In this document: piece by piece, positions 561 to 32,425 of the stretch | Numbering within the stretch: position 1 is the stretch's first letter | Layout: the number at the start of each line of letters is the position of its first letter | Source: an uncultured bacterium | GTDB taxonomy: Bacteria; Nitrospirota; Thermodesulfovibrionia; Thermodesulfovibrionales; CALJEL01 | DNA length: 39,037 nucleotides | Assembly: GCA_938074335.1 (NCBI GenBank) | Contig: CALJEL010000104.1 | Coordinates: 1 to 39,037 of the forward strand | Reading direction: 5' to 3' | Translations under genes and position numbers: made by a program | Notes under the pieces: model-generated | What the model saw: only the letters and a program-made list of their open reading frames with translations | Databases searched by the model: none | What the model was told of the DNA's origin: nothing

Positions 561-2468
561 ATGAAACTTCAACTTACAAGTGGTGATAGTTTCTCTATCA
601 GAGAAGGGCAGACCCTCCTTGATAGCCTTAAAGAGGCTGAATTTTATCTTGTTGCCTCCTGCGGTGGAAAAGGGACATGCGGTAAATGCAGGATAAGGAT
701 TATTGACGGTCCCTTTGAAGTTAAAGGTTATGGCAAGCTTACTGCTGAGGAAAGGAAAAAGGGATTTGTCCTTGCCTGCCAGAGCATCCCGCTTGGTGAC
801 CTTATTATTGAGGTTCCAGAGGATTCAAAGCTTACTGTTGGAGACAAGATTGCAATTTCAAAAGGCAGGGACCTCTTTGAGCTTCTTCTGTCTCTCGGGG
901 GGGATATTTCACCTCTTGTAAGGTATTTAGATCTTAATCTTCCTCCTCCTACCATTATTGATAATATCAGTGACCTCGAAAGACTGAAAAGGGCATTAAA
1001 AGACAAAGGCCTTGAAGGCCTGAGATTCTCAAATAGATTTTTAAAAGACCTTTCCGGTGCCCTCAGGAAAAATAACTGGGACATAAGGATCCACTATGCT
1101 GACTGCCTTGGCTGTAGCTTAACAGAAACTGGTATCTCCTCTGATTCACTGGAGGCCCTGTTTATATCAGCCCAGAAAGATACACCAAGATATGGCATAG
1201 CTGTGGACATCGGAACCACAACAGTTGTCGTCTATCTTGTTAACCTTGATGATGGAAGAATAATTGATGTGGGCTCCACATATAACTCACAGATAAGATA
1301 TGGTGATGATGTAATAACAAGGATAATATATGCTACTGAAAAAAACGGGCTTGAGGAATTGAGAGGGGCAGTTATTGAGGATATAAACACAATCACAGAT
1401 TCAATGGCAATAAGACACTCCATAAATAAAGAGGATATCCTGTCAGCTACCATAGCAGGCAATACAACCATGAGTCATATCTTCTGGGGACTTGATCCAG
1501 GGTCCATAAGGGAAGAGCCCTATATACCAACCGTAAATTTTTTCCCTATCTGGAGGGCAGGTACAGCCGGACTTAATATAAATCCTCAGGCACCTGTGTA
1601 CACACTTCCCTGTGTGGCCAGCTATGTTGGTGGAGATATTGTAGCAGGTGTACTTGCATCAAAGATGCACAGGAGCCCTGAGATATCCCTTTTTATGGAT
1701 ATAGGAACAAATGGTGAGATAGTAGTTGGAAATAATGAATGGTTAATGACAGCAGCCTGTTCAGCAGGTCCGTGCTTTGAAGGAAGCGGGATAAAATCTG
1801 GCATGAGGGCAACAAAGGGTGCAATAGAACAGATCAGATTCAATCCTTCAACCCTTGAACCTGAGTTTTCTGTTATCGGAGATGCAAGGCCGATAGGTAT
1901 ATGTGGTTCAGGGATGATAGATGCCATTTCAGAAATGTTCATTAAAGGAATCATTGATCAGAAAGGGAAATTTGTCAGTAACCGAACAAACAGGATAAGG
2001 GAAGGAGAAGATGGTCCTGAATATGTCTTTTATGAGGATACTAAAACGAATATAAGGGTTGTCCTTACAGAGCCTGATATAGAGAATATCATGAGGGCAA
2101 AGGCTGCAATCTATGCGGGCGTTTCGCTTCTTCTGAAAGAAGCAGGACTTGATTTTAACGCCATCGAGAAGGTTTATATAGCAGGTGGTTTTGGAAATTA
2201 TCTTGATCCAAGGAAGGCAATACTTCTTGGAATGCTCCCTGACCTGCCTGTTGAGAGGTTTGTCTTTCTTGGAAATACATCTATTGCAGGTGCCTATCTT
2301 TGTCTCCTTTCAAAAAGGATGCGGCAGGAGGCAGAGGAAATAACGGAGAAGATGACCTATATGGAGCTCTCTGTATCAAGAGGTTTTATGGACGAATATC
2401 TCTCTGCCCTCTTTTTACCCCATACAGAGCTTGAGAGATTTCCATCTGTGATGGAGGTGCTGAAGTAG
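561..2468 (+). CDS. RACo-family corrinoid reductive activator (2Fe-2S + ASKHA ATPase), 635 aa
   Basis: This family uses ATP hydrolysis to push an electron from a 2Fe-2S centre onto an inactive Co(II) corrinoid protein, as in acetyl-CoA pathway or methyl-transfer systems. The N-terminus is a plant-type ferredoxin domain with Cys34, Cys40, Cys43 and Cys73. The C-terminal two thirds is the ASKHA/DUF4445 ATPase, with AVDIGTTTV (about residues 214-222), FMDIGTNGEIV, SAGPCFEGSGI and CGSGMID. Length is normal for the family. No Shine-Dalgarno precedes the ATG, and a terminator ends about 15 bases upstream. No corrinoid protein or methyltransferase gene is in the window, so the target cannot be named. 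The stop codon TAG runs into an octamer repeat (2467-2512). Confidence 0.85.
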   Translation: MKLQLTSGDSFSIREGQTLLDSLKEAEFYLVASCGGKGTCGKCRIRIIDGPFEVKGYGKLTAEERKKGFVLACQSIPLGDLIIEVPEDSKLTVGDKIAISKGRDLFELLLSLGGDISPLVRYLDLNLPPPTIIDNISDLERLKRALKDKGLEGLRFSNRFLKDLSGALRKNNWDIRIHYADCLGCSLTETGISSDSLEALFISAQKDTPRYGIAVDIGTTTVVVYLVNLDDGRIIDVGSTYNSQIRYGDDVITRIIYATEKNGLEELRGAVIEDINTITDSMAIRHSINKEDILSATIAGNTTMSHIFWGLDPGSIREEPYIPTVNFFPIWRAGTAGLNINPQAPVYTLPCVASYVGGDIVAGVLASKMHRSPEISLFMDIGTNGEIVVGNNEWLMTAACSAGPCFEGSGIKSGMRATKGAIEQIRFNPSTLEPEFSVIGDARPIGICGSGMIDAISEMFIKGIIDQKGKFVSNRTNRIREGEDGPEYVFYEDTKTNIRVVLTEPDIENIMRAKAAIYAGVSLLLKEAGLDFNAIEKVYIAGGFGNYLDPRKAILLGMLPDLPVERFVFLGNTSIAGAYLCLLSKRMRQEAEEITEKMTYMELSVSRGFMDEYLSALFLPHTELERFPSVMEVLK

Positions 2469-2512
2469 TGAATTAGACTCAAGTGGGTTAGTGAATTAGG
2501 CTTAAGTGATTT
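2467..2512 (+). repeat. Two 23-base direct repeats made of AGTG-type octamers
   Basis: The units read AGTGAATT-AGACTCA-AGTGGGTT, then AGTGAATT-AGGCTTA-AGTGATTT: an 8+7+8 pattern repeated twice. The activator gene's TAG stop shares its last two bases with the first unit. The reverse complement (TTCACTAA-type) is the unit of the array at 25362-25401. Confidence 0.7.
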
Positions 2513-2533
2513 AAACCATAAGAGGGAGGCGGG

Positions 2534-2878
2534 ATGATAAAGGAACTAAAATATGATGAGAAGGGATTGATACCTGCGATTATCCAGGATATAAATACTG
2601 GAGAGGTTCTCATGATGGCTTACATGAATGAAAACTCCTTAAGGATGACCATTGAGACAGGGTATACCCATTTCTGGTCCAGGTCAAGGCAGAAATACTG
2701 GAAAAAGGGTGAGACCTCAGGAAATGTGCAGGAAGTAAAGGAGATACTTGTTGATTGTGATGCTGACACCCTTTTAATAAAGGTAATCCAGCATGGCAGC
2801 GGTGCCTGCCACACAGGACACAGGACATGTTTTTATAGGAATATAAAGGGACAAGAGCTGGAGCCCAAAAATTTTTGA
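2534..2878 (+). CDS. hisI: Phosphoribosyl-AMP cyclohydrolase, 114 aa
   Basis: Third step of histidine synthesis: opens the purine ring of phosphoribosyl-AMP. The full single-domain family core is present: MMAYMNE, the [17 protein letters not shown] signature (about residues 47-61), [11 protein letters not shown] and the metal-binding HTGHRTCF. There is no fused HisE (pyrophosphohydrolase) domain, and no hisE or other his gene is nearby. A strong Shine-Dalgarno (GGGAGGC) sits 6 bases before the ATG. The gene is 22 bases ahead of the HIT gene, so the two are likely co-transcribed. Confidence 0.93.
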
Positions 2879-2899
2879 GGTGAGTTTAAGAGGAATAAT

Positions 2900-3241
2900 A
2901 TGGAGTGTATTTTTTGCAGGATAGCTGAAAAAAAGCTTCCTTCAAAAATACTGTTTGAAGATGAAAGGTCCATAGCCTTTGAGGATATAAATCCTCAGGC
3001 ACCTGTGCATGTCCTTGTAATCCCCAAAAAACACATATCCACTGTTCTTGAATTAAAAAAGGAAGACCGGGAATTAATAGGTCAACTATTTCTTGTAGCC
3101 AATATAGTGGCAAAAGAGAAGGGTATTGCTGAAAGGGGCTTCAGGCTGGTTCTCAATTGCAACAGGGAGGCAGGCCAGACGGTTTTTCATATCCATCTTC
3201 ACTTACTTGGTGGAAGACCCATGCAGTGGCCACCAGGTTAA
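2900..3241 (+). CDS. HIT-family nucleotide hydrolase (HINT type), 113 aa
   Basis: A small cytosolic hydrolase or transferase acting on nucleoside phosphoramidates or dinucleotides. The histidine triad is HIHLH (His97, His99, His101) followed by LLGGRPM, as in HINT-branch proteins. The N-terminal CIFCRI carries the CxxC found in zinc-binding members. Length is typical. Its stop overlaps the stop of the convergent gene at 3238 by 4 bases. In many bacteria a HIT gene follows hisI/hisE; the physiological substrate is not known. Confidence 0.9.
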   Translation: MECIFCRIAEKKLPSKILFEDERSIAFEDINPQAPVHVLVIPKKHISTVLELKKEDRELIGQLFLVANIVAKEKGIAERGFRLVLNCNREAGQTVFHIHLHLLGGRPMQWPPG

Positions 3242-24265: not shown

Positions 24266-24688
24266 ATGCCACAGACAGAGGAAAAGAAAACAGAAGAAAG
24301 AAAAGAGGAGTATTTATACAGGGCAGATCCCTTCACCTTTGTATTTCGTGAGCTTGATCTCATACATGGTGAGATTAGAGAAATCAAGGCAGAGCTTGGC
24401 CTCATCAATAAACGCTTTGATTCCATGAATGAAAGTGTCAATAAACGCTTTGATGAGGTCAATAAACGCTTTGATTCCATGAATGAAAGTGTCAATAGAC
24501 GATTTAATTCCTTGAGTGAAAGTGTCAATAAACGTTTTGATGAGGTCAATAAACGCTTTGATTCCATGAATGAAAGCGTCAATAAACGCTTTGATGATGT
24601 CAATAAGAGAATAGACAAGCTATATCTCATTGTTATATTAAATCTTATGGGAATTGTAGCTTTTTTAATAAAGACCTTCTTTTTTTAA
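24266..24688 (+). CDS. Tail-anchored coiled-coil repeat protein, 140 aa
   Basis: A charged head (about residues 1-46) is followed by a repeat region (about 47-115) built from two kinds of unit: an 11-residue NKRFDSMNESV and a 7-residue NKRFDEV, in the order 11-7-11-11-7-11-7. Both lengths fit coiled coils (hendecad and heptad). A final hydrophobic helix (LYLIVILNLMGIVAFLIKTFFF cut: LIVILNLMGIVAFLIK, about 119-134) would anchor the C-terminus in the membrane. The DNA repeats are nearly identical, so the region is recent or slipping. Function unknown; an oligomeric spacer or scaffold is possible. Divergent from nuoA with a short shared promoter region. Confidence 0.78.
   Translation: MPQTEEKKTEERKEEYLYRADPFTFVFRELDLIHGEIREIKAELGLINKRFDSMNESVNKRFDEVNKRFDSMNESVNRRFNSLSESVNKRFDEVNKRFDSMNESVNKRFDDVNKRIDKLYLIVILNLMGIVAFLIKTFFF
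24405..24611 (+). repeat. In-frame 33- and 21-base tandem repeats within the coiled-coil gene
   Basis: Units of 33 bases (AATAAACGCTTTGATTCC...) and 21 bases (AATAAACGCTTTGAT-GAGGTC) alternate in the order 33-21-33-33-21-33-21. They share the first 15 bases. Most copies differ by zero to three bases, while the fourth unit (NRRFNSLSESV) is more divergent. Confidence 0.85.
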
Positions 24689-28098: not shown

Positions 28099-28300
28099 TG
28101 CGATAGTGCGACAGATAGAGCAGCAGACCAGTAGAGCAGTAGTGCAGTAGGTAGCCGTAGGCTTCCAGCCTGCGAAAATGGTGGAAATACAAAAAAAACG
28201 CATTGAACAGGCTGGAAGCCTGTTTCTACCATCTTGCGGCTACCAACTGTTGCTCTACTGCTCTGTTATTGCCTGTCGCTCTGTCGCACTGTCGCACTAC
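28088..28300. repeat. Octamer array 2: inverted octamer arms around a REP-like pair
   Basis: Left arm: AGTGCGAT AGTGCGAT AGTGCGAC, then AGATAGAGCAGCAGACCAG and AGAGCAGT AGTGCAGT (28089-28149). Right arm (28246-28300), read on the minus strand: AGTGCGAC AGTGCGAC AGAGCGAC AGGCAATA ACAGAGCAGT AGAGCAAC. The arms thus mirror each other, with GTGCGAC units outermost and GAGCAGT units innermost. The core is the REP-like pair at 28151-28243. The left edge supplies the kinase stop codon and the right edge runs into the truncated toxin gene. Confidence 0.85.
28151..28243. repeat. REP-like palindrome pair with GTAGCCGYA ends
   Basis: The element begins GTAGCCGTA and ends with the inverted TGCGGCTAC. 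Inside are two hairpins: AGGCT-TCC-AGCCT (28159-28171) and AACAGGCT-GGA-AGCCTGTT (28206-28224). A 5' GTAG next to a hairpin is the hallmark of REP elements moved by RAYT (Y1) transposases, and two inverted REPs together resemble a BIME. No RAYT gene is in the window. Confidence 0.7.
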
Positions 28301-28471
28301 TTTATCCTTTGCACCATAATCCGAGATGACCCAAAAATCAAGGTCATATGATATTCTGTGCCCAAGCTGCAGAGCAAGGCCTGTGCCAATGCCAAGATAA
28401 AAAGGTTCAAGAAAACCTCTTATAGTTTCTATTACCTCTACAGTTTCTGTGGTAATGACTTCTTCAAACAC
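28301..28471 (-). pseudogene. Truncated AbiEii/AbiGii-type nucleotidyltransferase toxin gene
   Basis: The start (ATG 28471) overlaps the antitoxin-like gene. Fifty-odd codons match the N-terminus of the family: LEPFYLGIGTGLALQLGHRISYDLDFW, where family members read FYLAGGTALALQLGHR-S-DLDFF (the NTase motif). Here the GG is IG and, after SDYGAKDK, the reading frame enters octamer array 2 (VVRQCDRATGNN...) and stops at 28226. More than two thirds of a normal toxin of this family is missing, so activity is not expected. Confidence 0.72.
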
Positions 28472-28725
28472 CTTATCTCCTCTTGAGGAATATTAAAATA
28501 AATAGCCCAGAAATTTGCTGTCTTCTTTTTAATATTCCTTGAGGTTTTTATAGTTGATATAATCTCATCATCACTGTAAAGCCTTCTTAGTTCCTTTATA
28601 TCCCTTTCATCTCCAAAGTTCAGGACCCTCTCAATGATATATCTTTTATGCCTTTTTATATTTATCTCTGCTGCATCCCAGAAAAGGAGGGGATTATATA
28701 ATCTTTTTGGATCTTTAGAACCCAT
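28438..28725 (-). CDS. DUF6922-like antitoxin-type protein, 95 aa
   Basis: A small protein with LLFWDAAEINIKRHKRYIIERVLNFGD, then a segment with STIKTSRNIKKKTANFWAIYF and a final NIPQEEIRCL. This layout (FWD, ERVL-GD, KTANFWA-YFNIP-EEI-CL) is that of small proteins encoded directly upstream of AbiEii-type nucleotidyltransferase toxins. It would be the partner of the truncated gene at 28301-28471, with which it overlaps by 34 bases. It overlaps the UbiD gene end by 11 bases, so it is at the tail of the isc-ubiD transcript. Intact although its partner is broken. Confidence 0.7.
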   Translation of the reverse strand: MGSKDPKRLYNPLLFWDAAEINIKRHKRYIIERVLNFGDERDIKELRRLYSDDEIISTIKTSRNIKKKTANFWAIYFNIPQEEIRCLKKSLPQKL

Positions 28726-30167: not shown

Positions 30168-30539
30168 TCATTTCTTCACTTTTGAAAGATAGTCCTCAAT
30201 TGCCTTTTTTAGGGCATCTGCACCGAGATTAGAGCAGTGCATCTTCTGAGGTGGAAGCCCATCAAGTGCATCGGCTACAGTCTCCTTTGAGATCTTTAAG
30301 GCCTCATCAAGGGTCTTGCCCTTCACCATCTCTGTGATCATACTGCTGACAGCAATGGCTGCACCACAGCCAAAGGTCTGAAATTTTGCATCCACAATCC
30401 TATCTCCATCTACCTTTATATAAAGCTTCATCACATCTCCACAAACAGGGTTTCCCTCTGTTCCAATACCATCTGCGTCTGGCATCTCTCCCACATTTCT
30501 TGGATTCATGAAGTGATCCATTACCTTCTGACTGTACAT
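30168..30539 (-). CDS. iscU: IscU/NifU-type Fe-S scaffold protein, 123 aa
   Basis: Assembles Fe-S clusters for transfer to target proteins. The three ligand cysteines and the Asp are intact: NPVCGD (Cys33, Asp35), FGCGAA (Cys58) and MHCSNL (Cys102, His101). Length is that of the bare NifU-N domain. A strong Shine-Dalgarno (GGAGG) precedes the ATG. It lies 14 bases after the IscS homologue, the normal arrangement for partners. Confidence 0.95.
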
Positions 30540-30553
30540 AATTAAAACCTCCT

Positions 30554-31747
30554 TTATTCCGGTTTACAGGCAGGTGAACCTGCCTCCTGCCATCCCTTTT
30601 GATAGGGTGATATCTCTCTGAGTCTTTTTATTATCTGAGGAAATTCATTAATAAAATAGTCAATCTCCTCATCGGTATTATCCTTTCCAAGGCTGAATAC
30701 CACAGAACCCTGAGCAAGCTGGGCAGGGATACCCATGCTTAAAAGTATGGGCGATGCCTTTAAAGCCTTACTTGAGCAGGCAGAGCCACTGGCACCATAA
30801 ATTCCCTTAGCAGCAAGCATAAGGAGCATTGCCTCACCTTCAATATATTCAACGCAAAAACTTGCATGACCTGGAAGCCTCTCAGCTGGATGGCCTGTGT
30901 AGTAGATATTTTCAACCCTTGAGGTGATCTCACTCACGAGCCTGTCCCTGAGTTTTTTCACATGTGCCATTCTCTGTGCCAATTCATTTCTTGCAAGCTC
31001 TGCAGCTACACCCATCCCTACTATTGCAGGTACATTCTCTGTGCCAGCACGCCTTCCACCTTCCTGAATCCCACCGTATATCAATGGCACTATCCTGAGA
31101 CCTTCTCTTACATAAAGGGCAGCAGCACCTTTTGGTCCATAAAATTGATGGGCTGCCATGCTGAGGAGGTCAATTCCAAGCTCCCTCACATCTACATGGA
31201 TATTACCGGTTGAAGCAACGGCATCTGTATGAAAGACAATATTATGCTCCTTTGCTATCCTTGCTATTTCCTTTACAGGCTGTATTGTGCCAACCTCACT
31301 GCTTGCATGAATAATGGATATGAGGGTGGTCTCCTTTGTAATGGACTTTTTAACTGTATCAGGATCAACCATGCCATATTTATCAACAGGAAGAAAGGTC
31401 ACTGTAAAACCATTCTTTTCAAGAAACCTTGCAGAATTCAGGATTGAATGGTGCTCCACCTTTGACACAAGCACATGTCTTCCCTCATTCTGCCTTGCAA
31501 GGGCAATTCCCCTGAGGGCAAAATTATTAGATTCCGCACCACTTGAGGTGAATATAATCTCAGAGGGTTTGCAGTTTATCAATGAGGCAACCTGCTCTCT
31601 TGCCTTCTCTATTGCCTCCTTTGCCCTTACACCGAGGTCATAGACACTCTGGGGATTTCCGAATTCCTCCTTAAAATAAGGAAGCATTGCCTCAAAGACC
31701 CTCGGGTCAAGTGGGTTTGTTGCTACATGGTCGAAATAGCATTTCAT
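30554..31747 (-). CDS. IscS/NifS-family protein lacking the PLP lysine, 397 aa
   Basis: Cysteine desulfurases use PLP to take sulfur from cysteine for IscU. The fold is complete: [62 protein letters not shown], and the mobile loop ASGSACSS with the sulfur-carrying Cys324. The residue that forms the Schiff base with PLP, the Lys of AH-K-YGPKG, is Gln201 (codon CAA). The Gln that contacts the cofactor oxygen is Ala178, and the Arg of the S-R-FSLG substrate-carboxylate site is Val350. Known precedent: the Archaeoglobus fulgidus IscS has Asp in place of this Lys and lacks desulfurase activity. The gene is intact with good signals. An unusual sulfur source or a scaffold role is inferred. Confidence 0.85.
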
Positions 31748-32001
31748 TTTATCCTCCTTATGTAGAACTTAAAAAAATCTGTATCATCCTCAACTCCTAT
31801 GAACTCATGTCCATTCTTCTCGCACCATTGAGGTATGTCCTCAAGTGCACCATCATAGTCAGTTATTATCTCAATTACCTGACCGGGCTCTACCTTCTTT
31901 ATCATCTCCTGTAATTTCAGCAGATGCATGGGACACATCATATAAACAATGTCTGCTGTCAGGTCTGCCTTAATATTTTCTACAAACTTGAGCTTTGACA
32001 T
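31744..32001 (-). CDS. TusA-like sulfurtransferase family protein, 85 aa
   Basis: TusA proteins carry persulfide sulfur on a CPxP-type cysteine. The motif here is MMCPMHLLKLQEMIKKV (Cys23-Pro24), then GQVIEIITDYDGALEDIPQWCEKNGHEFI, which matches the TusA fold (D-ALEDIP-WC-K-GHE). The proline two after CP is a His here. It overlaps iscS by 4 bases and iscR by 32, with a GGAAAGG signal before the ATG. The position between iscR and iscS suggests that it takes part in sulfur supply to IscU, perhaps replacing the missing desulfurase chemistry; this is inference. Confidence 0.85.
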   Translation of the reverse strand: MSKLKFVENIKADLTADIVYMMCPMHLLKLQEMIKKVEPGQVIEIITDYDGALEDIPQWCEKNGHEFIGVEDDTDFFKFYIRRIK

Positions 32002-32425
32002 GGAGCCTTTCCTCTAATTCACTTCCAAATCCTATCAGGTCTTTCAGGGTTATTGTTTTCAGAAAACCCTCTATCTGTTCTCCGAGTTTTTTCCATAACA
32101 GATGAGTGACACAGCCCTCAACCCTCACACATCCTTCTTCAGGATTCAGGCATGATGTAAGGGCAAGGGGTCCTTCAAGTTCACTTAATATCTCGATGAT
32201 ATTTATATCCTCTGGTTTTCTGCTCAGGCAATAGCCACCTCCTGGTCCTTTAATAGAAATAAGGAGGCCACCATGCTTCAATTTATTAAGTATCTGTTCA
32301 AGATAAGGGATTGAAAGCTCCTGTCTTTCAGATATCTCCTTTATGGTCACTGGACCGGGATAGCCCCTCGCAATCTCATACATTGCCCTTACTCCATACT
32401 GACCTTTTGTTGAAAGCCTGAGCAT
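31970..32425 (-). CDS. iscR: Rrf2-family Fe-S regulator, IscR-like, 151 aa
   Basis: A winged-helix repressor that senses Fe-S status. The DNA-binding domain starts MLRLSTKGQYGVRAM and includes TIKEISERQELSIPYLEQILNKL (recognition region). The cluster ligands are Cys92, Cys99, Cys105 and His108 in SCLNPEEGCVRVEGCVTHLLW; spacing is one residue longer than in E. coli between the first two cysteines. First gene of the isc operon and likely its autoregulator. Divergent from the GGDEF gene with an 82-base gap. The ATG follows a -10 box by 5 bases with no Shine-Dalgarno. Confidence 0.9.
   Translation of the reverse strand: MLRLSTKGQYGVRAMYEIARGYPGPVTIKEISERQELSIPYLEQILNKLKHGGLLISIKGPGGGYCLSRKPEDINIIEILSELEGPLALTSCLNPEEGCVRVEGCVTHLLWKKLGEQIEGFLKTITLKDLIGFGSELEERLHVKAQVCRKY

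Follow-up and report, generated by a model that had tools for sequence, protein, structure and literature searches.

An IscS-like protein of 397 amino acids that lacks the PLP-binding lysine is encoded on the minus strand at 30554..31747 of the window, by which we mean the whole stretch of 39,037 nucleotides analysed here, and across a broad group of bacteria such a lysine-less IscS is the norm. The possibility that it is an oddity of one genome was rejected because the same form is found across the order, the class, the phylum and many other phyla. At its broadest, our proposal, of which we are slightly more doubtful than convinced, is that there is a widespread anaerobic assembly of TusA, lysine-less IscS and IscU, in which the former desulfurase would act as a TusA-fed persulfide relay and ligand scaffold, which would have arisen at least twice, in bacteria and in archaea, and which would be the sole de novo machinery in some genomes.

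The open reading frame lies exactly where the first-pass annotation had placed it, on the minus strand, and translation reproduced every residue that it had named. Specifically, the (S/A)HK motif that holds the PLP-binding lysine of cysteine desulfurases reads AHQFYGPKG with Gln201 (codon CAA; 31145..31147, minus strand), the PLP-contacting Gln is replaced by Ala178 (GCT; 31214..31216, minus strand), and the Arg that binds the substrate carboxylate is replaced by Val350 (GTA; 30698..30700, minus strand). The sulfur-accepting, persulfide/cluster-ligand cysteine of the mobile loop is kept as Cys324 (TGC; 30776..30778, minus strand). Among the further PLP contacts, Ala71, Ser150 and Ala198 stand at the positions of E. 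coli Thr76, Asn155 and Ser203, and His99 and Asp175 (E. coli His104 and Asp180) are kept. The protein matches Aminotran_5 with an E-value of 4e-80 and misses the NCBIfam equivalog cut-offs for NifS (501.9 vs 530.75) and IscS (395.8 vs 643.2), a failure that by itself says little because the canonical NifS-like copy in the same genome misses these cut-offs too. In the AlphaFold2 model (mean pLDDT 93), the IscS fold is predicted to be intact, with low-confidence stretches in the C-terminal tail and the Cys loop, and its closest matches among solved structures are human NFS1 within ISC complexes and Archaeoglobus fulgidus IscS, including IscS–IscU complexes.

Within the order, 49 genomes, the window's included, have the gene, and in none of them is the lysine present; the position is mostly Gln, with Glu in five, Met in one and Ile in one, and the same lysine-less form was found in the class. 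Because dN/dS against a genome of the same genus (G001; protein 92% identical) is ~0.042/1.12, the gene is under strong purifying selection. To place it more broadly, we scanned 84,980 species genomes for homologues, the homologue set being a sample among the matches listed. Relatives among the matches listed came from Chloroflexota, Desulfobacterota, Planctomycetota, Omnitrophota, Acidobacteriota, Aminicenantes and Clostridia as well as from Aquificaceae, Bathyarchaeota, Hadesarchaea and Methanoperedenaceae. From these listed matches, 182 homologues were aligned and 111 of them lack the lysine; the Arg is lost in 111/111 and the Gln in 108/111 of these lysine-less proteins, and the Cys is invariant across all 182. 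The Thr, Asn and Ser of the PLP phosphate/ring site are changed in most lysine-less proteins. Because the PLP-stacking His and the pyridine-binding Asp (His99 and Asp175 in the window) are invariant in 111/111 of them, the pocket may still bind something, perhaps PLP itself, and some other activity is possible. Eight rows (L099, L100, L101, L103, L104, L105, L107 and L117) keep the lysine and have lost both Arg and Gln, the latter to Met or Ala, and are possible intermediates.

In a tree of 105 rows (LG+C20, trait columns removed), the rows without the Arg form two groups. One is a bacterial clade of 64 rows that includes the window (support 100/97) and spans Nitrospirota, Chloroflexota, Desulfobacterota, Acidobacteriota and others, and the Gln form thus belongs to a clade, a point that the first-pass annotation had marked for checking. 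The other is a clade of seven rows, all with Asp (support 100/96), that comprises A. fulgidus IscS, Bathyarchaeota, Hadesarchaea, Methanoperedenaceae and one Nitrospinota. Two changes are needed across the bootstrap trees, and the bacterial and A. fulgidus clades are separate in all 200 of them; in the AU test a single origin received p = 0.062. Two origins of the bacterial and archaeal forms are favoured over one, without being proven. Hence, the earlier suggestion that the bacterial form is a different solution to the archaeal one stands as far as the separate clade in the best tree goes, but a single origin is only marginally disfavoured. Gene transfer from archaea is unsupported because the window lies in the bacterial clade away from A. 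fulgidus. The rows that keep the lysine and lack the Arg are placed inside the bacterial clade, which fits a putative order of loss in which Arg and Gln went before Lys. We note that one row of the bacterial clade (L192) comes from a record titled Euryarchaeota.

Because Lys, Gln and Arg are lost and the K206A and Q183E variants of E. coli IscS are inactive (PMC9978102), we infer that the lysine-less protein is almost certainly inactive as a desulfurase, in agreement with the first-pass annotation. The loss of the Arg has to be judged by the kind of replacement because E. coli IscS R354K is active (PMC9978102). Desulfurase-inactive IscS as a kind is already known from archaea: A. fulgidus IscS is reported to have no desulfurase activity and to give a Cys ligand to the [2Fe-2S] cluster of IscU (PMC7585200), and Methanosarcina acetivorans IscS1 is likewise without the lysine (PMC7585200). 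A. fulgidus IscS (4EB5/4EB7/4HVK) resembles the window protein (44% identity, TM-score > 0.9) in the replaced lysine, the changes of Gln to Ala and, at the Arg, to Leu, the kept active Cys and the partner IscU. The two differ in that the archaeal protein has Asp where the window has Gln, they lie in separate clades in the best tree, and the window protein, in contrast to A. fulgidus IscS, no longer has the Thr and Asn of the PLP site either. Moreover, a lysine-less bacterial homologue appears to have been crystallised already: in PDB 9WFY the lysine position is occupied by Leu and the arginine position by Val, as in the natural Aquificaceae proteins L165/L168, which are members of the window's clade. 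It belongs to a series (9WEP-9WFY) titled 'cysteine desulfurase' and closest to Aquificaceae sequences, in which the entries from 9WFE to 9WEP appear to be stepwise changes toward canonical residues. We found neither a paper on this series in the open-access literature nor TusA or IscU beside the Aquificaceae genes.

The gene is embedded in an operon that begins with an Rrf2/IscR-like regulator (31970..32425, minus strand; Rrf2 Pfam and NCBIfam superfamily matches) and continues with a TusA-like sulfur carrier of 85 amino acids (31744..32001, minus strand), the lysine-less IscS, an IscU/NifU-type scaffold of 123 amino acids (30168..30539, minus strand) and a UbiD-type decarboxylase. Rrf2 and TusA genes overlap by 32 bases, and TusA and IscS genes by 4 bases. 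The carrier has the TusA fold, a Cys-Pro motif (CPMH) and Cys23 and Cys60, and scores 74 bits against PF01206 (cut-off 28.6); the scaffold is a NifU_N protein in which the three conserved ligand cysteines are kept, with 208.8 bits against TIGR03419 (cut-off 187.9). What had been described as an intact isc operon therefore does contain the Rrf2–TusA–IscS–IscU series but is a minimal operon, with no hscBA, iscA or fdx in it. Nearly all order relatives with the gene keep these four genes in the same sequence. The UbiD/MqnL gene that follows IscU was dropped as a part of the system because it is conserved only within the genus. In having an IscS-type protein and IscU without chaperones or carriers, the operon resembles the minimal ISC system MIS, which is described with a cysteine desulfurase (PMC12192291), whereas the window has a lysine-less homologue together with TusA. 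With the canonical E. coli IscS/NifS and TusA, the window system shares the fold, the Cys loop and the partners IscU and TusA; unlike the window protein, E. coli IscS has the catalytic Lys, Gln and Arg, and sulfur passes from cysteine to IscS and on to TusA.

A separate canonical, lysine-bearing NifS-like gene is present in the window's genome (C35), beside a hypE-like gene and with no scaffold next to it, and a second homologue, ~43% identical and lysine-bearing where read, was found in 47/49 genomes of the order. In three genomes (G049, G053 and G258; drafts 92-98% complete, so that absence is not proof), no canonical desulfurase was detected at E < 1e-25; SerC or an aminotransferase accounted for the remaining matches. 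The window's IscU is the only NifU_N protein in its genome, and 21 of the 49 order genomes have no NifU_N protein besides the linked IscU and yielded no SufB/D. We considered and rejected that the window's genome is without any other scaffold, and the sole-scaffold claim applies to the 21 relatives only: that genome also holds an SMS-like pair (L229:547-1293 and 2260-3204; G000:C31), made up of a smsC-like SufC-type ATPase with a Cys-rich C-terminus (CFVCDGEIC) and a smsB-like, short SufB-type protein of 314 amino acids, which is a possible second Fe-S scaffold. In addition, five close relatives from family f9 (G009, G021, G031, G041 and G051) have neither NifU_N nor lysine-less IscS but a SufB/D protein, and the order thus switches between Fe-S assembly systems.

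Among loci flanked by at least 2 kb on both sides, a TusA gene adjoins 74/85 lysine-less genes, 3/5 genes with Lys and without Arg, and 0/48 canonical genes (Fisher p 7e-26, uncorrected for relatedness, the counts being phylogenetically non-independent with one or two independent contrasts). A sign test of TusA against Arg loss on independent branches had only 1-2 contrasts to draw on, too few for significance. TusA also lies beside 5/5 Asp-type loci from archaea and Nitrospinota with adequate upstream flank, and is missing beside some lysine-less genes in Acidobacteriota and Aquificaceae. Its place in the gene order differs between groups, first in the window's class and in archaea and last in many further phyla, so a single inherited arrangement does not account for the linkage. 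Cys23-Pro24 is present in 97/97 and Cys60 in 92/97 TusA rows; these cysteines align with Cys19 and Cys56 of E. coli TusA, which are both important to function (PMC11302665). The motif is CPMH, not CPxP, almost throughout the window's class and mostly CPxP in other phyla. The co-occurrence strongly suggests TusA as the sulfur supplier, as the first-pass annotation had proposed.

Our working hypothesis, which we consider probable, is that the inactive desulfurase is kept as a platform on which IscU docks, and that its Cys324 relays persulfide from TusA and/or ligates the nascent cluster. Specifically, the IscS-fold protein would be a pseudo-desulfurase that cannot take sulfur from cysteine and docks the adjacent IscU; Cys324 in the mobile loop would accept persulfide from the adjacent TusA-like carrier and pass it on, and could, compatibly with this relay, also provide the forming [2Fe-2S] cluster on IscU with an additional ligand. 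Sulfur would enter upstream, either through the canonical NifS or as sulfide-derived persulfide in these dsr-bearing anaerobes. The joint loss of the catalytic residues while the Cys and the fold are retained, the conserved gene order, the TusA linkage with its invariant Cys23, the 21 genomes in which the linked IscU has no alternative among NifU_N and SufB/D proteins, the inactive, ligand-giving A. fulgidus IscS (PMC7585200) and the feeding of IscU by sulfide in anaerobic E. coli devoid of IscS (PMC13015791) all argue for this hypothesis. Because Cys19 of TusA is 4 Å from Cys328 of IscS in the E. coli complex (PMC11302665), a transfer from TusA to IscS is geometrically possible. In E. coli, however, IscS is the donor and TusA the acceptor of sulfur, and TusA competes with IscU for IscS (PMC11302665); that sulfur moves the other way here is an assumption, and the invariant His99 and Asp175 and the lysine-less genes without an adjacent TusA also speak against the hypothesis. 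The TusA relay, the direction of sulfur flow and the ligand role are inferences of ours.

The main rival, which we regard as unlikely yet deserving serious attention, is that free sulfide reacts on Fe-IscU, as has been put forward for A. fulgidus, with the IscS-like protein only lending Cys324 as a ligand and TusA serving otherwise. A. fulgidus IscS is a precedent (PMC7585200), in anaerobic E. coli that lacks IscS sulfide is able to supply IscU (PMC13015791), and dsrA is above its cut-off in 56/61 genomes of the order, the window's included, although with nearly all order genomes having dsrA it does not separate the groups. Free sulfide would leave unexplained why TusA is tied to the lysine-less form in both clades, at frequencies so different from those of canonical genes, and why the Cys of TusA is invariant.

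Considerably less probable is another PLP- or ligand-dependent activity, with non-covalent PLP and His99 as a base, or a heterodimer with the canonical NifS. The invariant His and Asp are as such a pocket would have them, E. coli K206A still retains some PLP (PMC9978102), and the second homologue of most order genomes could supply the partner; but Arg and Gln are gone in nearly all rows, the PLP-site Thr, Asn and Ser are mostly changed, and three genomes yielded no canonical desulfurase. As for a sequencing error or a decaying pseudogene, CAA is one base from AAA, but the relatives refute it so clearly that we give it practically no weight: the same change occurs in tens of genomes and with both Gln codons (CAG in 69 rows, CAA in 13), dN/dS is ~0.04, and the operon is conserved.

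A cysteine desulfurase is commonly regarded as the sulfur source that defines ISC-type assembly, and genome annotation follows that view. Our data point to a large bacterial group that is labelled 'cysteine desulfurase' by homology and would be without that chemistry, and the association with TusA, which recurs in two separate clades, indicates a particular alternative route for sulfur that can be tested. The order in which the residues may have been lost can be read from the intermediates that keep Lys without Arg and Gln, and an ISC system fed by sulfide or persulfide rather than by cysteine would bear on Fe-S cluster formation before there was oxygen. We found no description of how broad the bacterial clade is, of the joint Arg loss or of the TusA linkage in the open-access literature.

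Elsewhere in the window, two adjacent short open reading frames at 28226-28725 (minus strand) resemble pieces of a nucleotidyltransferase-type gene, which may be broken, and an open reading frame at 24266-24688 (plus strand) contains a heptad-like repeat in tandem (VNKRFDSMNES) and is overlapped by a long antisense frame.
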